Virus record (IMG/VR): IMGVR_UViG_3300046463_000181
Location: 1 to 47,076 of that record
From: a virus
DNA length: 47,076 nucleotides
Reading direction: 5' to 3' (one strand)
Shown: positions 6,208 through 45,183 of the stretch, piece by piece
Layout: each line of letters begins with the position of its first letter
How positions within the stretch are numbered: position 1 is the stretch's first letter
The notes under the pieces: generated by a model
What the model saw: only the letters and a program-made list of their open reading frames with translations
Told to the model about the DNA's origin: nothing
Databases searched by the model: none
Translations under genes and position numbers: made by a program

Positions 6208-7158
6208 TTATTCGCAGAGGCCATAGGCTGAAGAGCAACTGTTCTGGCTGTCGGAGCGTGCAATTAGGTCAACCATGTCGAACTGGCGGCCACCGCGCGC
6301 GGTGTTGCTCCAGTCGACAATCCTGTCAATTCCGTGCGTGACAGCGCTCACCTTGTCATCTGACCTGACGGTGGGGTCGGTTACGGTGGCGAAGAACGTA
6401 GCCGCTCCGCGCTTGCTGGCAATGCTCACCAGTCGCTCCCACTCCCGCACACGATCAACTTCTTCTGGCCACCGGGCCGCGATCTGCCTCAGCTCGTCCT
6501 TCGCACACATGATGCAGGGCATGCAGCCAACGCGGTTGCAGCCTTGCAAGTAGAGAGGGTTCGGCTTGATGCCGGCGGCGCGGTGAGCCTCGAAGACCGA
6601 ATCAACCGTCCACTTCAAGATGGGCCGATAGTTGAACAGGCCGCCGCCAACCTCATCGCACTCTGGTAGGTACTTGCGGGCCGGCGACTCATCAGCCCGA
6701 ACGCCTTGCCAAGACAGCAGCATGTTCTCACCGTCCATGAGCGGCAGGTAAACCTGCTCGATGATTGGATTGCGCTTGAGCTCGTCGGTGCAGAAGCGGG
6801 CTTTAGTGCTGGGAAATCTACCTTTCCACAGGCACAAGTCCAGGAACGGGTTGCCGGTTGGGTTCAGGACTTCTAGAGCGCCCAGCACCACGGATTCCGC
6901 CACACCCTTTTCGCGCCATTTCGTTTCGATGAATTTGCGCTTGCCGGCGATCTGTCTGGAGAAGTCTGCCTTCACCCACCGGATGGGAACACCAGTGGCT
7001 TCGGCCAGGTAGTGGATGTAATCGTACGTCTCTGGATGCTCATGCCCGGTGTCAGCCACTACAGCGCTGAGATTTGGCACCTCCAGCTCGCGGGCGACCA
7101 GCAACGTAGCCGTGCTGTCTTTACCGCCGCTCATGCTGACGATGTTGTGAGTAGGCAT
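6208..7158 (-). CDS. PP-loop ATPase, PAPS-reductase-like family
   Basis: 316 residues. The PP-loop SMSGGKDST (about 8-16) that binds ATP pyrophosphate is intact, followed by a VVADTGHEHPET segment typical of PAPS-reductase/DndC-like enzymes. A cysteine cluster (CNRVGCMPCIMC, about 207-218) and a terminal CSSAYGLCE suggest metal or Fe-S binding. Phage homologues are usually labelled phosphoadenosine phosphosulfate reductase; because of the cysteine cluster a nucleic-acid or tRNA thiolation or DNA modification role is as likely as sulfate assimilation. GAGG precedes the ATG. Confidence 0.8.
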   Translation of the reverse strand: MPTHNIVSMSGGKDSTATLLVARELEVPNLSAVVADTGHEHPETYDYIHYLAEATGVPIRWVKADFSRQIAGKRKFIETKWREKGVAESVVLGALEVLNPTGNPFLDLCLWKGRFPSTKARFCTDELKRNPIIEQVYLPLMDGENMLLSWQGVRADESPARKYLPECDEVGGGLFNYRPILKWTVDSVFEAHRAAGIKPNPLYLQGCNRVGCMPCIMCAKDELRQIAARWPEEVDRVREWERLVSIASKRGAATFFATVTDPTVRSDDKVSAVTHGIDRIVDWSNTARGGRQFDMVDLIARSDSQNSCSSAYGLCE

Positions 7159-21394: not shown

Positions 21395-21470
21395 GCCGTC
21401 ATAGCTCCAGCGGTAGAGCAGTCGCCTTGTAAGCGAATGGCCCGGGGTTCGAATCCTCGTGACGGCACCA
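21395..21470 (+). tRNA. tRNA-Thr(TGT)
   Basis: 76 bases. Acceptor GCCGTCA pairs with TGACGGC, discriminator A and encoded CCA. D arm AGCTCCAGCGGTAGAGC, anticodon loop CTTGTAA with anticodon TGT, T arm with GGTTCGAATCC. The anticodon stem has only four standard pairs. Phage-encoded, lying with tRNA-Asn in the late leader. Confidence 0.92.
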
Positions 21471-21473
21471 CAT

Positions 21474-21549
21474 TGGCGCGTAGCTCAGTTGGTAGAGCAG
21501 GCGGCTGTTAACCGCCCGGTCGGAGGTTCGAGTCCTCCCGTGCCAGCCA
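21474..21549 (+). tRNA. tRNA-Asn(GTT)
   Basis: 76 bases, three bases after tRNA-Thr. Acceptor TGGCGCG with CGTGCCA (one G-T pair), anticodon stem GGCGG/CCGCC with loop CTGTTAA (anticodon GTT), T arm GGAGG-TTCGAGT-CCTCC, encoded CCA. All canonical features are present. Confidence 0.95.
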
Positions 21550-23246: not shown

Positions 23247-23723
23247 ATGGCTGCCCTTCAAACCGACGTGAAGGCCTTTATCGTTCAGGCCCTGGCATGC
23301 TTCGACACGCCTTCTCAGGTAGTTGAGTCTGTCCAGAAAGAATATGGGGTGACGATCACCCGCCAACAGGTTGAGACGCACGACCCTACAAAGACTTCAG
23401 GTAAGTGCCTGGCCAAGCGATGGGTGACGTTGTTCGAGGACACACGAAAGCGATTCCGCGAAGACACCGCCGATATCCCGATCGCCAACCGAGCGTTCCG
23501 ATTGCGCGCCCTTGGACGAATGGCCGAGCGAGCTGAAAGTATCAAGAACCTTGCACTGGCCGCTCAACTCATGGAGCAGGCAGCCAAAGAGACTGGCGGG
23601 GCATACACGAACAAACAACAGGTGGATTTGAGTTCCGCTGATGGCTCGATGAGTCCGAAGGCGGCGCCAACCGGAGTAGATGCGGCCCTCGTTAAGGCCC
23701 TGGTAGATAAGCTGGTTGACTGA
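23247..23723 (+). CDS. Terminase small subunit (DUF2280 family)
   Basis: 158 residues. An N-terminal helix-turn-helix (PSQVVESVQKEYGVTITRQQVETHDP) followed by a helical middle (RFREDTADIPIANRAFRLRALGRM) is the DUF2280 layout. Its TGA overlaps the ATG of the large terminase. It should recognise phage DNA and start packaging. Confidence 0.85.
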   Translation: MAALQTDVKAFIVQALACFDTPSQVVESVQKEYGVTITRQQVETHDPTKTSGKCLAKRWVTLFEDTRKRFREDTADIPIANRAFRLRALGRMAERAESIKNLALAAQLMEQAAKETGGAYTNKQQVDLSSADGSMSPKAAPTGVDAALVKALVDKLVD

Positions 23724-25273
23724 TGGCTATCAAACCGATCGAGTGGGACACGCTTTCCGTTGACGAGCGTGCCGCCTTGATCGCGGCTGGCGAGCATAGT
23801 CCACTGGCCTTCACCAGTCTGTGGTTCAACATCACCCAAGGCGACAGCTTCAGAACGAACTGGCACCACCACTATTTCGACTACGCCGCTCGCAAGATGC
23901 TGGAAGGCAAAGCGCAGAACATCGTCGTCAACATCCCACCAGGTGGCACGAAGACCGAATTCTGGTCTGTGCACCTGCCGGTCTACACGATGGTCAAGCA
24001 CCGCCGGGTGCGGATCCTCAACACCAGCTACTCCAAGAACCTGGTCGATGAGAACAGCGAGCGCAGCCGCGCACTGGTCAAGTCATCAGAGTTCCGCGAG
24101 TTCTATCCCTTCGACATCGAGAAGGACAAGGTAGACGACTGGACGCTGGCCAAGGATGGGAAGCGCGTACACCAGCTATTCAGCCGCTCGAGTGGCGGCC
24201 AGATCACCGGCGTCCGTGGCGGCTACATGGGCGACGGCTACACCGGCCACATCCAGGCGGATGACTGGGACAAGATCGACGACCTGTTCAGCGAGGCAAA
24301 GCGGCGCAAGTCGCACACGCGCCTGGTGAACACCCTGCGCAGTCGGAAGGCGCACAGCGGCACACCATTCGTTGCGATCCAGCAGCGGGGACACGTCGAC
24401 GACTCGACCGCGTTCCTGCTGTCCGGCGGCATGGGCCTGAAGATCGATCTGCACATCAAGATCCCGGCCCTGGTCAATCAGGAGTACATCGACAGCCTGC
24501 CTGACGGCATCCGCGAGCGCTGCATCAAGTGCGTATGTGGGTCGGAGCAGGTTGATGGCTACTGGTCGTACTGGCCGGCCAAGGAAAACGTTCACGACCT
24601 GATCGCGCTGCGTACGGCTCACCCGTACACGTTCAGCAGCCAGTACATGCAGAACCCCGACACGCTCGACGGCGGGATCTTCTCGGCGGATGACTTCCAG
24701 TACTACGGCGACGTGGATGCCGGGGCCGATCTGCCGGTGCCGGAGAAGTTCGACTATCGCTTCATCACCGCCGACACCGCCCAGAAGACCAACACCTGGA
24801 ACGACTGGACTGTGTTTGCGGAGTGGGGGGTGGCGGAAGGACGCATCTACCGGCTGAGCATGAAGCGCGGCCGGATGGATGCGAAGACCCTGCGCCGTGA
24901 GTTCGAGGCATTCGTCAAAGGTGCTTGGGCCAAGAACGGGAAAGCCAACGGCATCCTGCGTCGGGTCTACGTCGAGGACAAATCAAGCGGTACCGGCCTG
25001 ATCCAGGAGATGGAGAAGCGCCTGCCGCTCAAGGTGACGCCTGTTCCGCGCGATCGCGACAAGCTGACCCGCGCACTCGACGTGCAGGGCTTCCACGCCG
25101 CCAAGCTGGTCTGTCTGCCGTACGACGACAGCCAAAACTACGAGTTCGTGTGTGAGGTCGCGTCCTTCACCGCCGACGACAGCCACAAGTACGACGACCA
25201 GACCGACGTGATGATCGACGCCTTGTCCGAGGTTTACATCAAAGGCAAGCGCTCAATCCGCGACCTCCTATAA
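23723..25273 (+). CDS. Terminase large subunit
   Basis: 516 residues. The ATPase half has a Walker A-like VVNIPPGGTKTEF (about 68-80) and an acidic Walker B-type segment (GHIQADDWDKIDD); the C-terminal nuclease half has the RNase H-like acidic residues in YRFITADTAQK, VEDKSSGTGL and DDQTDVMIDAL. It cuts and pumps phage DNA into proheads through the portal encoded next. Confidence 0.95.
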   Translation: MAIKPIEWDTLSVDERAALIAAGEHSPLAFTSLWFNITQGDSFRTNWHHHYFDYAARKMLEGKAQNIVVNIPPGGTKTEFWSVHLPVYTMVKHRRVRILNTSYSKNLVDENSERSRALVKSSEFREFYPFDIEKDKVDDWTLAKDGKRVHQLFSRSSGGQITGVRGGYMGDGYTGHIQADDWDKIDDLFSEAKRRKSHTRLVNTLRSRKAHSGTPFVAIQQRGHVDDSTAFLLSGGMGLKIDLHIKIPALVNQEYIDSLPDGIRERCIKCVCGSEQVDGYWSYWPAKENVHDLIALRTAHPYTFSSQYMQNPDTLDGGIFSADDFQYYGDVDAGADLPVPEKFDYRFITADTAQKTNTWNDWTVFAEWGVAEGRIYRLSMKRGRMDAKTLRREFEAFVKGAWAKNGKANGILRRVYVEDKSSGTGLIQEMEKRLPLKVTPVPRDRDKLTRALDVQGFHAAKLVCLPYDDSQNYEFVCEVASFTADDSHKYDDQTDVMIDALSEVYIKGKRSIRDLL

Positions 25274-25289
25274 CCAAATCGGTGACCTC

Positions 25290-27155
25290 ATGAGCAAGAA
25301 GGGCTTAGTGCCAGCAGACAAAAAGCTGGGCAAAGCCCTTGTGAGGGCCGCTCAGAAGTACGAGGCATCGATCAAGTCCTCGAGTGATGGCCTGGTCAAC
25401 GTTGTATCGGGGCTCGGCACTCAGAAGGCCAAACGCTCACACAACCAGTTCCAGTACGGCTTCCTCAACGACTTCCAGCAGCTCGACGCGGCGTATCAGA
25501 CGAGCTGGCTCGCTCGGGCGATCGTGGACTACCCAGCCGAGGACATGACCCGCGAGTGGCGCACCCTCAAGTGCGACGACGCGGACGTGATCCGGGCTGA
25601 GGAAGACCGGCTCAACCTGCCGGCCATGGTCAGCGAGGCAACCAGCTGGGCACGCCTATACGGTGGCGCTGGCATCCTCATGCTGACCAATCAGGACCTG
25701 ACCAAGCCGCTCAAGCCGGAGAAGATCAAGAAGGGCGACCTGTACCGCCTGCTGGTGATCGACCGCTTCGACATGACGGCGATGGACCTGAACCAGACCA
25801 ACATCCTGGCTGCGAACTACTTGCAGCCGGAGTTCTACACCATCGCCGCCGGCGCCCAGATGATCCACTGGACGCACTTCGCACGGTTCGCCGGTGCCAA
25901 GCTGCCGCGCCGCCAGCGTGCACAGACGCAAGGCTGGGGTGACTCAGAGCTGCGCAAGTGCCTCGATGACGTGATGGACATCGTAGCCAGCAAGGACGGC
26001 ATCGCCGAGCTGATGCAGGAAGCGAACGTCGACATCATCAAGCGCGTCGGACTCTCGGATGAACTGGCCAGCGATCAGGACGACGCCATCACGGCGCGCT
26101 ACGCCCTGTTCAGCATGATGAAGTCCTCGATCAACCTGGCGCTGTTGGACGACGAAGAGACCTACGACCGCAAGACGCTGGATCTGTCCGGCGTTGCCCC
26201 GGTGCTCGACCTGCTGATGACGTGGATCGCTGGCGCTGCCGACATCCCAGTCACCCGCCTGTTCGGCACCTCCGCCAAAGGCCTCAACGCCACCGGCGAA
26301 GGGGACATGGACAACTACTTCAACTCGCTGTCCTCGAAGCGCCTGACCCAGATTGACCCAGGCCTTCGCCAGCTCGACGAAGTGCTGGTGCGCTCGGCCA
26401 CCGGGCAGTGGATCAACGACTTCAACTACGTATGGAACCCGTTCCAGCAGCCTGATGTCGTGCAGATCGCTACAGCCAACAAGGCCAAGGCCGAGACGGA
26501 CCTCATCTACAAGGATGGCGGGATCGTCACCACCAGCCAGATTCAGCGCCGCCTGCAGGCCGAAGAGCTCTACCAGTTCGACGACGAGAAGATCGAAGCG
26601 CTGGAGGCTGATGAAGACCTGACGATGTTCAATGACCCGGTGGATGACGATGACGATGGCGGCAATAGAAAGCCGTCTTCTGATGCTGCACCTGCTCCGC
26701 TCTATGTGTTTAGGCCGGTGCTGAACGCCGACGCGCTCATCAGCTGGGCTAAGTCGCAGGGCTTCACGCAGACCCTGCCCGCCGACGACCTGCATGTGAC
26801 CGTGGCGTTCAGCAAGTCGCCGGTCGACTGGATGAAGGCGGGCGAGGCTTACAGCTCCCGCGATGATGGCGGCGTGACTGTTCGACCTGGTGGGCCTCGG
26901 ATGCTCGAGGTGTTCGGCGAGGGCGCGGTTGTTCTGGCGTTCAACAGCTCAGACCTATCTTGGCGCCACATGTCTCTCAGGGAGATCGGCGCCTCTTGGG
27001 ACTACCCGGAGTACCAGCCACACATAACCATCACCTACAACTTGGGTGATGTGGATGTGAGCAAGGTAGAGCCGTATCGCGGGGAGATCATCCTCGGTGC
27101 TGAGGTGTTCAAGCCGATCAAGCAGAACTGGAAGGCGGATGTCAGCGAGGAGTAA
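25290..27155 (+). CDS. Portal protein (DUF1073) with C-terminal Acb1-like anti-CBASS domain
   Basis: 621 residues. Residues 1 to about 450 are a DUF1073-type portal (SWLARAIVDYPAEDMTREW; PVTRLFGTSAKGLNATGEGD). After an acidic linker (about 448-462) comes a roughly 150-residue domain starting YVFRPVLNADALISWAKSQGF with two H-x-T motifs: H502-V-T504 and H578-I-T580. That pairing is the 2H-phosphoesterase active site of Acb1, which hydrolyses the cyclic nucleotides that activate CBASS. Whether the fused domain is active, or released from the portal, cannot be seen. Position after terminase confirms the portal role. Confidence 0.9.
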   Translation: MSKKGLVPADKKLGKALVRAAQKYEASIKSSSDGLVNVVSGLGTQKAKRSHNQFQYGFLNDFQQLDAAYQTSWLARAIVDYPAEDMTREWRTLKCDDADVIRAEEDRLNLPAMVSEATSWARLYGGAGILMLTNQDLTKPLKPEKIKKGDLYRLLVIDRFDMTAMDLNQTNILAANYLQPEFYTIAAGAQMIHWTHFARFAGAKLPRRQRAQTQGWGDSELRKCLDDVMDIVASKDGIAELMQEANVDIIKRVGLSDELASDQDDAITARYALFSMMKSSINLALLDDEETYDRKTLDLSGVAPVLDLLMTWIAGAADIPVTRLFGTSAKGLNATGEGDMDNYFNSLSSKRLTQIDPGLRQLDEVLVRSATGQWINDFNYVWNPFQQPDVVQIATANKAKAETDLIYKDGGIVTTSQIQRRLQAEELYQFDDEKIEALEADEDLTMFNDPVDDDDDGGNRKPSSDAAPAPLYVFRPVLNADALISWAKSQGFTQTLPADDLHVTVAFSKSPVDWMKAGEAYSSRDDGGVTVRPGGPRMLEVFGEGAVVLAFNSSDLSWRHMSLREIGASWDYPEYQPHITITYNLGDVDVSKVEPYRGEIILGAEVFKPIKQNWKADVSEE

Positions 27156-27158
27156 TCC

Positions 27159-27974
27159 ATGGACATGATCGGCATCCAGTACAACGCCAAGCTTCAGCGG
27201 CTGGTGAAGCAGGTCAAAGCCGATATCTCAGCCGAGATCATGCCTCTGGTCCGCCAGCTTGCCCCGGAGTACACGCAGGACGCCGTGGTCACGACCGATG
27301 CCTGGTCAGACCGGATCCTGAGTGCAATGTCTCGCCTGATGCAGAAATGGCAGTCGGAGCGGGTCAGTGCTGGCGCAAACCGGATGGCCGCCGAGTTCGT
27401 TCAGTCGTCGCTGAAGAAGTCCGAGCGCGACCTGAAGAAGACGGCCGGCATCGACGTGTTCAGCGGCAACAACACGCTGCAGGACTACCTGAAGGCATCC
27501 GCACAGCAAAACGCACTCCTGATCAAATCCATCCCGGCCAAGTACCTCGACGAGGTGCAGACGCTGGTGATGGCGAACATGCGTTCCGGCATGCGGCCGG
27601 GCTACATCGAGAAGGCGTTGCAGGAGCAGTTCGGCGTGACCCAGCGCCGGGCCAAGATGATCGCCCGCGACCAGACATCGAAGATCAGCGGCGAACTGGC
27701 CGAGAAGCAACAGACGGGCGCCGGCTTCGAGTACTTCCAGTGGATCGACTCGGACGACAGTCGCGTCCGGCACCGCCATTCGGAGATCGCCAACAAGGTC
27801 ACCGCATACGGCAAAGGGATCTACCGCTGGGACAACCTGCCGCTGAGTGCAGACGGCAAGCCGATCAAACCCGGCTCCGACTATCAGTGCCGCTGCATCG
27901 CGCGCCCAGTGAGCGCACGCGAGGTCAAGGCCAACCAAGACGCAGGCCGCACAGCGCCGGGCGTCTACCGATAA
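27159..27974 (+). CDS. Head morphogenesis protein (SPP1 gp7-like)
   Basis: 271 residues. The C-terminal half RAKMIARDQTSKISGELAEKQQ...YFQWIDSDDSRVRHRHSEI...PGSDYQCRCIARP is the conserved minor head protein (MuF/gp7) signature. GAGGAG precedes the ATG. It normally associates with the portal and is injected or needed for correct DNA exit. Confidence 0.9.
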   Translation: MDMIGIQYNAKLQRLVKQVKADISAEIMPLVRQLAPEYTQDAVVTTDAWSDRILSAMSRLMQKWQSERVSAGANRMAAEFVQSSLKKSERDLKKTAGIDVFSGNNTLQDYLKASAQQNALLIKSIPAKYLDEVQTLVMANMRSGMRPGYIEKALQEQFGVTQRRAKMIARDQTSKISGELAEKQQTGAGFEYFQWIDSDDSRVRHRHSEIANKVTAYGKGIYRWDNLPLSADGKPIKPGSDYQCRCIARPVSAREVKANQDAGRTAPGVYR

Positions 27975-27998: not shown

Positions 27999-28226
27999 AT
28001 GAAAATCAAGGTTAAGTGCATCGAGACCGGCGCCGAGTCGGTATTCGACACCGACGGCTACCACATTTCCGTGCAGATGACGCCGGCAGACTTGGCAAAC
28101 ATCAAGTCGCTGCCGGAAACCGAAGACGGTCGAAGCCTCGACGGTAATGAGCATCGCACCTACGCATGCGTGCGCCCGGTTGACGACGAGCATTCCGACA
28201 GCCTCTTCGCATGGGCGAAGCAGTAA
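27999..28226 (+). CDS. Small phage protein of unknown function
   Basis: 75 residues, acidic, with a strand-rich start (MKIKVKCIETGAESVFDTDGYHISVQM). Lies between the minor head and protease genes; its stop overlaps the next start (TAATG). Function unknown. Confidence 0.65.
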   Translation: MKIKVKCIETGAESVFDTDGYHISVQMTPADLANIKSLPETEDGRSLDGNEHRTYACVRPVDDEHSDSLFAWAKQ

Positions 28227-29386
28227 TGACCACCTGTACGGTCTTTGACCGTGTCAGCCACCGCATCACCCACCGGGAATACACCGACGAGGGCTTCCTC
28301 AAGGTGCCGGGCCGAGTGGCGCGCACCGGCATTCAGGAGTATCTGGCCCGCGAGCTTGGGCTCGACGGTGATCCGAACCGAATCGTTCGCGTGTACCGCC
28401 CCGAAGAAGAGGTGTTCAACGACTCGTCGCTGGGCACGTACGACGGCGCGACGGTCACCAACGACCACCCTAAAGAACTGGTCACGGCCAAGAACTACAA
28501 GGCCGTAGCTGTAGGCGAGGTGCGCGGTTCGGGCCGGCGCGACGGCGACTTCGTCGTCTGCGATCTGATCATCAAGGATCAGAAGACCATCGACGATATC
28601 AATGCCGGCAAGTGCGAACTGTCCGCCGGCTACACCGCTGAATACGTCCACGGGCCCGGCGTGACCGCCGACGGTCAAGAGTACGAGTACACCCAGCGCA
28701 ACATCATCATCAACCACCAAGCGGTGGTTACCAAAGCGAGGGCGGGCGGCATCGCTCGCGTCTTCGACCACAACCCAGGAGGCAACACAATGCCTGTACT
28801 TATCACCACCGATAGCGGGCGCAGCGTTGATGTTGCTGATCCTGCGAACGCCCAAGTGGTCGCCGACTCGTTCGACCGATTGATGAAGCGTGCCACTGAT
28901 GCGGAATCCAAGGCTGATACAGCTCAAGCTGCCGCCGACAAAGCGGCCGAAGACTTGGTCGACGCCCGCAAGGCCTCGGGCGATGAGGCGATCACTGCAC
29001 GCGTCAAAGCCATCAGCGCAACCCAAGCACTTGCCCGCAAGGTCGCCGGCGACAGCTTCACCTGCGACAGCCTCGACGTGATCGAGATCAAGCGTGCCGC
29101 GCTGGCAGTGGCGTTGCCGAAGCGAGATTGGTCGGACAAGTCCGCGGGATACGTTGAAGCCGCCTTCGACGCCGAGTCCGACAAGGACGAGGAAGAAGAC
29201 GACAAAGACGAGAACGGCAACAAGAAGCCGAAGCCGGCCACCGGTGACACCGCCGCGCTATTCGCTCAGTTCATGCAGTTGGCTAAGGACGGCGCAACCA
29301 CCGCCGCGACCACCGACGCCGCACCGACCCCGTACCAGGCGCACAAGCAAAGCTTGTCCGGCGCACACAAACAGAAAGGAGCCTAA
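28226..29386 (+). CDS. DUF2213 prohead protease/scaffold
   Basis: 386 residues from ATG 28226, which overlaps the previous stop. The N-terminal 190 residues match DUF2213 (YDGATVTNDHPKELVT; GKCELSAGYTAEYV; IIINHQAVVTKARAG), a head maturation protease type. The C-terminal half is alanine-rich and then highly acidic (DKDEEEDDKDENG), as expected of a fused scaffold that is removed before packaging. Confidence 0.85.
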   Translation: MTTCTVFDRVSHRITHREYTDEGFLKVPGRVARTGIQEYLARELGLDGDPNRIVRVYRPEEEVFNDSSLGTYDGATVTNDHPKELVTAKNYKAVAVGEVRGSGRRDGDFVVCDLIIKDQKTIDDINAGKCELSAGYTAEYVHGPGVTADGQEYEYTQRNIIINHQAVVTKARAGGIARVFDHNPGGNTMPVLITTDSGRSVDVADPANAQVVADSFDRLMKRATDAESKADTAQAAADKAAEDLVDARKASGDEAITARVKAISATQALARKVAGDSFTCDSLDVIEIKRAALAVALPKRDWSDKSAGYVEAAFDAESDKDEEEDDKDENGNKKPKPATGDTAALFAQFMQLAKDGATTAATTDAAPTPYQAHKQSLSGAHKQKGA

Positions 29387-29388
29387 CC

Positions 29389-29883
29389 ATGCCAGTTCAA
29401 GGTGGTAACGCAATCAACCACGGCGTCGCATACGCGGGCATGGTCGCTGACGGCGAAGTGTCCAACGGCGTCTCCAAGGTCAACAAAGGCACCGCGAACA
29501 TCGCGTACGGCCTGGGCGTTGTGAGCGACGGTGACGACGGCGCAAAACTGCCAGTCGCTGCATCGACCGCAGCCCAGTTCATCGGCGTCGTGAAGCGCGA
29601 ACTGAACCGAGCCTACACCCAGTCCGACGTGTTCGGTGCGGTCGCCAAGCGCGACATGACCGTAGAGACCATGGCGCCTATCTGGGTTACTGCTCGCGTA
29701 GCAGTTGCCAAGGATGACCCGGTCTATCTGGTAGTCGGCGACGGCACCGGCACCAACCAAGGCCAGTTCTCGAACGTGGTCGGCGCGGCTGCAACCTTGG
29801 CCGTGCTGATCCCTAACGCCAAGTGGGTAACCACCACCGGCGCCGGCGTACTTGGAAAAATCTCTCTCAAGGTCGGGGGCTAA
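29389..29883 (+). CDS. Capsid cement/decoration protein (Gp24-like)
   Basis: 164 residues, AAGGAG upstream. Starts MPVQGGNAINHGVAYAGMVADGE and is beta-rich throughout (FIGVVKREL; AVAKDDPVYLVVGDG), matching structural cement proteins encoded next to DUF2184 capsid genes. It would stabilise the expanded head. Confidence 0.8.
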   Translation: MPVQGGNAINHGVAYAGMVADGEVSNGVSKVNKGTANIAYGLGVVSDGDDGAKLPVAASTAAQFIGVVKRELNRAYTQSDVFGAVAKRDMTVETMAPIWVTARVAVAKDDPVYLVVGDGTGTNQGQFSNVVGAAATLAVLIPNAKWVTTTGAGVLGKISLKVGG

Positions 29884-29888
29884 TCGAC

Positions 29889-30917
29889 ATGACTCAGCTT
29901 AAAAAAATCGTCGTAGCCATTGATGCCGCAATCGCGCACCAGATCGGCCGCGATGCGTACCAAGTGACCTTCAATGACGGTCTGCCGACCCTCGATGACG
30001 GCCTGGCGTTCTACATCAGCCAGCTGGCGAGCCTGGAATCTCGTATCTACGAGGCCAAGTACGCCGCAATCAACTACATGGAACTGATCCCGGTCGACAC
30101 TTCTCTGCCTGAATGGGTAGATCAATGGGACTACATCAGCTACGACGGCGTGACCATCGGCAAGTTCATCGGCGCCAGCGCTGACGACCTGCCCGATGTG
30201 ACGGTAAACGCGAACAAATCGGTTGTGCCGATCGGCTACGCGGGCAACAAGTACAGCTACAGCCTGGACGAACTGCGCAAATCGCAACAGCTGCGCATCC
30301 CGCTGGATACCACCAAAGCCCGTCTGGCTTTCCGTGGCGCCCAAGAGCATACCCAGCGTGTGGCGTACTTCGGTGACGCAGCTCGCGGCATGACTGGGCT
30401 GTTCAACAACCCCAACCTGGCGCTGTCGAACTCCACGCTGGACTGGTACAACGCCGCGACCACCGGTGACCAGATCGTTGCCGACCTGAACAAGATCCTG
30501 GTTGATGTCTACATCAACTCGGCCACTGTGCACGTCCCTGACACGATCATCCTGGATGCTGCCCGCTTCGCGTTCATCTCGAACAAGCGGATGGGCACCA
30601 TCACCGACAAGACGATCCTCGAGTACTTCCGCACCAACAACCAGTTCACCGCGCTGACCGGTCGCCCGATCAATATCTTCAGCCGCCTGCAACTGTCTGC
30701 TGCCCAGTTGTCCGCCGCCGGCGTGTCCAATGGCAACAAGGACCGCATCGTCGCTTACGAACTGAACGACGAAAACCTTGGCATGCAGGTGCCGATCCCG
30801 TGGCGCTCCCTGGCTCCGCAGATGTGGAATCTGAAGGTCAACGTGCCGTGCGAGTACAAGATCAGCGGCGTTGAATTCCGCTACCCGTTCTCTGGCGCGT
30901 ACCGCGACCAGTTCTAA
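29889..30917 (+). CDS. Major capsid protein (DUF2184)
   Basis: 342 residues from ATG 29889; the upstream in-frame ATG lies inside the cement gene. The pattern YEAKYAAINYMELIPVDTSLPEWVDQWDY...GKFIGASADDLPDV...YGYSLDELR-type core and the end GVEFRYPFSGAYRDQF are typical of DUF2184 capsid proteins of HK97-like fold. It lies directly after protease and cement genes. A GC-rich hairpin (30930-30962) follows the stop. Confidence 0.9.
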   Translation: MTQLKKIVVAIDAAIAHQIGRDAYQVTFNDGLPTLDDGLAFYISQLASLESRIYEAKYAAINYMELIPVDTSLPEWVDQWDYISYDGVTIGKFIGASADDLPDVTVNANKSVVPIGYAGNKYSYSLDELRKSQQLRIPLDTTKARLAFRGAQEHTQRVAYFGDAARGMTGLFNNPNLALSNSTLDWYNAATTGDQIVADLNKILVDVYINSATVHVPDTIILDAARFAFISNKRMGTITDKTILEYFRTNNQFTALTGRPINIFSRLQLSAAQLSAAGVSNGNKDRIVAYELNDENLGMQVPIPWRSLAPQMWNLKVNVPCEYKISGVEFRYPFSGAYRDQF

Positions 30918-43932: not shown

Positions 43933-45087
43933 TCAGCCATGCGATGGGGTTGTTGAGCGCTTACCTTCAACCCTATATTTAATAATCTTATCGGAAATCG
44001 CGCGGCCCTTCCTGCGCATTGGTGTTTCCACTAGCCTGAAGGTTGCCTCTGACAGCAAGAAAATCATCACCGCAGCAGTTAATGTGAATGCTATCGTGAA
44101 TGTTTCATCAAACCTTACTTCTGGGTTCAATCTATACCAGACTTCGCGAGTACCGAAGAAAACTGCTTCATGGCATAGATAGATTGCATATGATCGTGAT
44201 CCTAGATAAACCAAAGACTTCCTGAATAAATTCTCTTTAATTAGCAATCCTGAATTATGCCCGGCGATCCATACGAGAAAAGCAGACGCAACAGCAGCGA
44301 GGCCCGGTGACAACGATGGGGAAATGATTGGCAGACGTATCAAACAAAAAACCAACACCGTGAATGTAATCCATCTTAATAGGCTGTATTTAAGCACTGA
44401 AGGTTTTACACGATTGAATATAGCTTCCGGGATCATCGCCAGTAGGACGCCACATATTATTGCGTCGGTACGTACAGGCCAGAGGAATGCAGCGATAGGT
44501 CGCTCGATAAAGAATTGAATTGCAAACAAGGCAATAAACACTATTGCAAGTGTGGATCGCCTGAGCGCGAAAAGAACGATAGGGAAAATAAAGTAGAATT
44601 GTTCTTCTAGGGAAAGGCTCCAATACACTGCCGCAGAACCGCAGTTATGGTCTCGTATGCACAAATAGAAGTAAAAATTCGCCACTTGAAATGCAGCAGC
44701 CAATGCATTGGTTACGGTATTTTCCAGAATGCCATACGCACCACTGGTATTGAAAAAAGCTGTGGCCAAAACATAGATAGCCAGCCATAGCAGGGCAGCA
44801 GGCCACAGACGCCACATCCGGCGCACCCAAAAAGGAACAGCGAAATATCTAAAGTCTCTCCATGAGTTATTTTGCGACAGCTTTGGGAGTACAGATCGAG
44901 CTATTACAAATCCAGAAATACAAAAGAAAAGGTCGACGCCTCCAGTCAAAGAAGAGTTCGACGCGAACTTTTCAAACCATGAGGGCGCCCAGACGTACAG
45001 AAGTCGCAGGTGGGCAGCAATAGTAATGATGATTGTCACACCGCGTAATGCTTCAATTTCTAGGTTTTTCTGTTGAGAATCGATCAT
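43933..45087 (-). CDS. Membrane acyltransferase (acyltransferase-3 family)
   Basis: 384 residues from ATG 45087; a TTG at 45132 would add 15 residues but lacks a ribosome site. Ten or so membrane segments. LEIEALRGVTIIITIAAHLRLLY contains the family's R...H pair and GGVDLFFCISGFVIARS its second motif, with WSLSLEEQFYFIFP further on: the OafA/O-acetyltransferase layout. Reversed, AT-rich and placed between fibre and lysis genes, it most likely acetylates surface polysaccharide in the lysogen and changes phage receptor properties. Confidence 0.88.
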   Translation of the reverse strand: MIDSQQKNLEIEALRGVTIIITIAAHLRLLYVWAPSWFEKFASNSSLTGGVDLFFCISGFVIARSVLPKLSQNNSWRDFRYFAVPFWVRRMWRLWPAALLWLAIYVLATAFFNTSGAYGILENTVTNALAAAFQVANFYFYLCIRDHNCGSAAVYWSLSLEEQFYFIFPIVLFALRRSTLAIVFIALFAIQFFIERPIAAFLWPVRTDAIICGVLLAMIPEAIFNRVKPSVLKYSLLRWITFTVLVFCLIRLPIISPSLSPGLAAVASAFLVWIAGHNSGLLIKENLFRKSLVYLGSRSYAIYLCHEAVFFGTREVWYRLNPEVRFDETFTIAFTLTAAVMIFLLSEATFRLVETPMRRKGRAISDKIIKYRVEGKRSTTPSHG

Positions 45088-45183
45088 TCCAAGCTTTTCC
45101 GAACGCTGGGTTGTAGGTGGCGCGAGGCTCAAGGGCGGAACTATCCACTATGAGGTCACATAAATAAAGCGAAGTCCCGAGAT

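Follow-up and report, generated by a model that had tools for sequence, protein, structure and literature searches.

Acb1 proteins cleave 3′3′-cGAMP and cAAA and block CBASS in vivo; in their binding pocket Y12, W74, F107 and W147 stack on the bases while E141 contacts adenine N6, and in T4 the activity is late, at about 15 min, in line with the late death associated with CBASS (PMC9117128). Hobbs et al. (2022) tested nine further homologues, all of which were active, and described 112 prophage relatives that were defined by their closeness to structural genes. According to the accounts that cite Richmond-Buccola (2024) in PMC11312562 and PMC12409349, a phage prohead protease can activate a CBASS cyclase. 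Here we analyze a stretch of viral DNA (the window, a 47,076-base IMG/VR virus record) in which a domain assignable to Acb1 forms the C-terminal third of a portal protein.

The fusion gene (25290–27155, + strand; 621 aa) lies in a block of head genes on the same strand, where it follows the large terminase gene (23723–25273; PHROG_38) and precedes the genes for a Mu-F-like minor head protein (27159–27974; PF04233, 5.6e-14; PHROG_15127/324), a DUF2213 head maturation protease (28211–29386; PHROG_530, 5.9e-103; PF09979) and the major head protein (29823–30917; PHROG_264). This order of terminase, portal, minor head protein, protease and major head protein is that of the PF06381/HI1409 portal family. 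The preliminary description had spoken of a prophage, reasonably, as the window encodes an integrase and a CI-type repressor, from which we conclude that the phage is temperate; its host is probably Pseudomonas. Two phage tRNA genes, Thr(tgt) and Asn(gtt), lie immediately upstream of the packaging genes (21395–21549, + strand). The early region holds a phosphoadenosine phosphosulfate reductase-like gene (6208–7158, − strand; PHROG_424), and an O-acetyltransferase gene (43933–45132, − strand; PHROG_3333), likely O-antigen-modifying cargo, is found near the right end.

Profile searches divided the fusion protein into two parts, as the preliminary description had proposed. Pfam placed PF06381 (Phage_portal_3) on residues 64–404 (25479–26501, + strand; E = 1.6e-91), the portal part being also recognized by TIGR01555 (E = 1.5e-77; NCBIfam), and PF23474, named "Acb1", on residues 470–616 (26697–27137, + strand; E = 4e-44, 150 bits against a cut-off of 27, model positions 2–143 of 144). 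At the level of sequence we consider the latter match decisive for Acb1 identity. PHROG_146, a "portal protein" family, spans residues 24–616 and covers both parts, indicating a fused form frequent enough for a family to be built on it. The C-terminal part also matched the Pam3 cyanophage portal 8hds in a sequence search (5e-34) and the crystallised FBB1 Acb1 7t26 with phmmer (E = 4e-16). Both catalytic motifs lie exactly where they had been reported, H502-V-T504 (26793–26801, + strand) corresponding to Acb1 H44/T46 and H578-I-T580 (27021–27029, + strand) to H113/T115. The pairing of the motifs had itself been offered as evidence; two HxT motifs spaced 60–90 residues apart occurred in only 0.04% of shuffles of residues 454–621, but the protein contains four H-x-T/S triplets, the others being H193-W-T and H560-M-S, so that the motif by itself is weak evidence and it is homology that carries the identification.

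To the extent that a model can show it, the fold agrees. The AlphaFold2 model of residues 454–621, built from an alignment of 41 natural relatives, has a pLDDT of 90 and a pTM of 0.83 and agrees with a compact 2H fold with a U-shaped pocket; a model lacking the duplicated 2H barrel, which for the preliminary description would have been a refutation, was not obtained. Its top Foldseek matches in the PDB were the Acb1 structures 7t26 and 7t27 (apo and product complexes; E = 7e-10 and 5e-9, TM 0.81 and 0.80 by target), with LigT also matching the fold, well behind Acb1. On sequence, predicted fold and catalytic residues taken together, the assignment of the domain to the Acb1 family appears secure. 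The full-length model (pLDDT 76) comprises a body matching many phage portals, a predicted disordered linker at residues 444–465 (26619–26684, + strand; pLDDT <50) and the 2H domain; the linker includes the sequence VDDDDDGG and is acidic, as the preliminary description had said. The best portal match was 8hds, in which 442 residues of a 621-residue chain are modelled. When the domain model was compared with the PDB by Foldseek, 8hds was absent among the matches listed, though its deposited chain sequence contains the Acb1 domain. We infer that in the Pam3 portal, the one solved virion with such an architecture, the domain has no model because it is either flexible or cut off.

To evaluate conservation, we collected 121 distinct Acb1 domains from 47 IMG/VR loci, six bacterial genomes and further scans, 105 of them fused to a PF06381-type portal; a single profile scan found at least 592 relatives in IMG/VR. 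Both H-x-T/S motifs are kept in 119 of the 121. Within the portal-fused set, whose median pairwise identity is 59%, no variation occurs at H502, T504, R475, R537, G598, G603 or E605; H578 is present in 104 of 105, and T or S occupies position 580 throughout. Known pocket residues are retained in part: Y472, aligned with Acb1 Y12, is kept in 104 of 105, position 572 (Y572, aligned with F107) is aromatic or His, and W614, aligned with the lid residue W147, is found in 73 of 105. W74 has no clear equivalent in the window domain, where F542 lies nearby. The position of E141 is occupied by K608 (27111–27113, + strand), the alignment of the lid being uncertain here; in the fused relatives it is Glu in 80 of 105 and Lys in six, including the clade of the window. 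Mainly because of this lysine, where Acb1 has the Glu that reads adenine, a specificity identical to that of Acb1 should not be assumed. Three residues away lies E605, which from its invariance is a candidate stand-in for E141. In two of the 121 distinct domains (L038/L039 and L051), Tyr replaces the second catalytic His; L036, near-identical to L038, retains His, so the change looks like a recent loss.

The portal body and the Acb1 domain have not always travelled together. Between the window and its close relatives both parts diverge equally (body/domain identities of 92/94, 79/77 and 70/66%), whereas comparison with fusions of the phiPSA1 and Brevundimonas types gives 31–36% identity for the body and 58–63% for the domain. 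The window portal body is also 70% identical to a Jedunavirus portal that lacks the domain, and a scan of the checked Jedunavirus genome, run without a positive control of its own, found no Acb1 elsewhere in it. Over all pairs, mean identity is 55% for the domain and 40% for the body, and in 94% of pairs the domain scores above the body; this is not what a decaying accessory piece would be expected to show. As far as these comparisons reach, they are most simply read as lateral gain or swapping of the domain, with slower domain evolution contributing to a degree that is not fully separable.

The portal–Acb1 fusion is widespread in IMG/VR and in GenBank phages, and other head-assembly proteins carry the domain too. 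According to Pfam, L049 encodes a PF06074 Mu-type portal with PF23474 and a PF14550 XkdF protease, and this locus and its near-identical copies are the only Mu-portal fusions; L053 joins Acb1 to a PF04860 portal, and L021 and L051 join it to an XkdF-type protease. By-eye calls of protease fusions at L054 and L029 were not confirmed by Pfam. An Acb1 domain also sits on a Mu-F-like minor head protein (L176:2–1132), and L167, L171 and L172 encode large proteins with an unusual combination of ChaB, Acb1 and XkdF-type protease domains, some with DUF5824. The joining of Acb1 to three portal families, to a Mu-F minor head protein and to XkdF-type proteases, as read from domain profiles, is new and a more interesting finding than the window gene alone. 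That fusion was repeated follows from the different partner families (PF06381, PF06074 and PF04860 portals, Mu-F minor head protein, XkdF proteases); a quick domain tree, unresolved at many forks and long in its branches, does not fix the number of events. Free Acb1 genes may lie close to head genes as well, directly upstream of the portal genes in Edwardsiella phage ZHS and, as gene 57B, near several internal head protein genes in phage VR7 (L061:1447–2884). The label "prohead protease" on the free Acb1 of DSS3P8 (gp129, L003) and of ZHS (ZHS_4, L004) is, as far as Pfam shows, an apparent mislabel.

We tentatively suggest, at somewhat less than even odds, that phages have repeatedly and convergently joined a mobile anti-CBASS nuclease to those head-assembly proteins whose assembly can trigger CBASS, the enzyme possibly also acting from inside the virion when the next infection begins. 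In the papers on Acb1 covered by the search, which reached few subscription journals, we found no mention of the portal fusion, so the architecture is apparently undiscussed despite being widespread; some of the 112 prophage relatives mentioned above may be such fusions.

The closest sequenced host genome with such a prophage is that of Pseudomonas morbosilactucae, whose prophage has 82–88% DNA identity to the window over the ~12 kb compared. The same genome (G001, contig C6; L078:4008–8618) holds a complete-looking CBASS locus with cyclase, HORMA, TRIP13 and NucC genes and CapP nearby, a type that we expect to signal through a cyclic trinucleotide. In a sample of 299 genomes from the P. morbosilactucae genus group, five strong matches were obtained, all in open frames of 624–645 codons, the size of the portal. 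Co-occurrence with CBASS of the cyclase-HORMA-TRIP13-NucC type was not significant (one of five Pseudomonas carriers against eight of 294 others; Fisher p = 0.14), and the general SMODS profile proved not sensitive enough to serve here. The host context therefore agrees with an anti-CBASS role without proving it.

Our preferred reading, to which we give a probability of roughly 0.6, is that the C-terminal third of the portal is a functional Acb1-type cyclic-oligonucleotide phosphodiesterase, made late and probably acting while attached; an anti-CBASS role of the portal-borne domain is likely. Portals are late proteins, procapsids are permeable to small molecules, and CBASS and related systems are known to notice phages during head assembly. 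Synthesized late as part of the portal, the domain would, in unassembled cytoplasmic portals and in portals of still-permeable procapsids, cut the small cyclic di- and trinucleotides produced by a CBASS cyclase at a late stage of infection, and their loss would keep the effectors untriggered until phage release. Fusion to a head-assembly protein would couple both the dose and the timing of the enzyme to head assembly. Because T4 Acb1 activity is late and a prohead protease can activate a CBASS cyclase, a portal-borne Acb1 would appear alongside the very proteins that trip the alarm. The preliminary description had asked how about a dozen portal copies per virion could act in the cytoplasm, for instance by proteolytic release or delivery with the particle; the need for release is probably no real obstacle, since portal synthesis takes place in the cytoplasm, the enzyme's substrates are small molecules and active sites would already amount to ~1–2 µM (by arithmetic from 12 portal copies and 50–100 heads, an assumed burst size). 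What speaks against the preferred reading is that after packaging a still-attached domain would sit, useless, in a DNA-filled head, that K608 replaces the adenine-contacting Glu, and that two distinct domains have Tyr at the second catalytic His.

Release could nevertheless occur if the head maturation protease cut the flexible linker, the free enzyme then leaking from the procapsid into the cytoplasm or being ejected with the DNA. The acidic, predicted disordered linker and the DUF2213-type protease encoded two genes downstream of the portal, a candidate linker cutter, would fit such a scheme, as would the Pam3 portal of equal architecture, whose model lacks the domain; this missing density is, however, equally explained by flexibility, linker length and sequence vary strongly among relatives with no common cleavage motif noticed, and small substrates make release unnecessary, so that we consider this route unlikely and release from the virion speculative. 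A separate Acb1 protein might instead arise from internal translation initiation within the portal gene. In the clade of the window (L008, L009, L010, L012 and L055) an ATG at codon 446 lies 7 nt after AGGA, with only AAG in the window itself; this linker ATG is confined to the close clade, it is not conserved in the wider fused family and several members have no linker ATG at all, which removes a conserved internal start as a general mechanism and leaves this the least credible of the alternatives, a very long shot even for the window.

It is also improbable, slightly more so than release by the protease, that the domain has lost or changed the Acb1 activity and serves as a structural crown or plug inside the capsid, or that its target is a different 2H substrate, for example RNA or a 2′,3′-cyclic phosphate end. 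K608, the many substrates on which 2H folds act, the match of LigT to the fold and the expected position of the domain on the capsid side of the portal are all compatible with such a change. Nevertheless, the 105 distinct fused domains retain the catalytic tetrad together with most of the pocket aromatics, the best fold match is Acb1 and not LigT, and the close portals of the Jedunavirus type manage without the domain, which shows that it is not needed for portal assembly.

If the domain is active, an anti-CBASS enzyme would be part of an essential structural protein and not an early accessory gene, which the phage could not lose cheaply and whose dose would track head assembly. That the domain has repeatedly been fused to different head proteins suggests that selection favours a link between counter-defence and the stage of assembly sensed by CBASS. 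As an overlooked anti-defence element, the domain probably occurs in hundreds of viral records whose labels read "portal" or "hypothetical protein"; among its free relatives, some are wrongly labelled "prohead protease".

Compared with described systems, the window domain shares with Acb1 (T4 gp57B; FBB1 Acb1, 7t26/7t27) the PF23474 profile, the predicted 2H fold, both aligned HxT motifs, most pocket aromatics and the lid Trp. It differs in having Lys at the position aligned with E141 and in being the C-terminal domain of a portal; Acb1 of the T4 type stands alone, as a protein of ~150 aa whose gene is not among the head genes. The portal of cyanophage Pam3 (8hds), like other PHROG_146 portals, has the portal-plus-Acb1 architecture, and at 621 aa it equals the window protein in length; its domain, of whose activity the accessible literature holds no description, is 39% identical to that of the window, reads HIS at the second motif and was left unmodelled. 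The portals of Pseudomonas phages phiPSA1/psageB2, Rhizobium phage RHEph04 and Synechococcus phage Yong-M2-251 carry Acb1 domains 47–61% identical to the window's in features whose annotation goes no further than portal, head or hypothetical protein; the 600-aa psageB2 product, a checked portal–Acb1 fusion of the phiPSA1 type, has a portal body only 31% identical to that of the window. Jedunavirus portals, such as that of Klebsiella phage vB_Kpn_HF1013, show the opposite pattern, with a body 70% identical to the window's in a protein of 472 aa that ends without an Acb1 domain.
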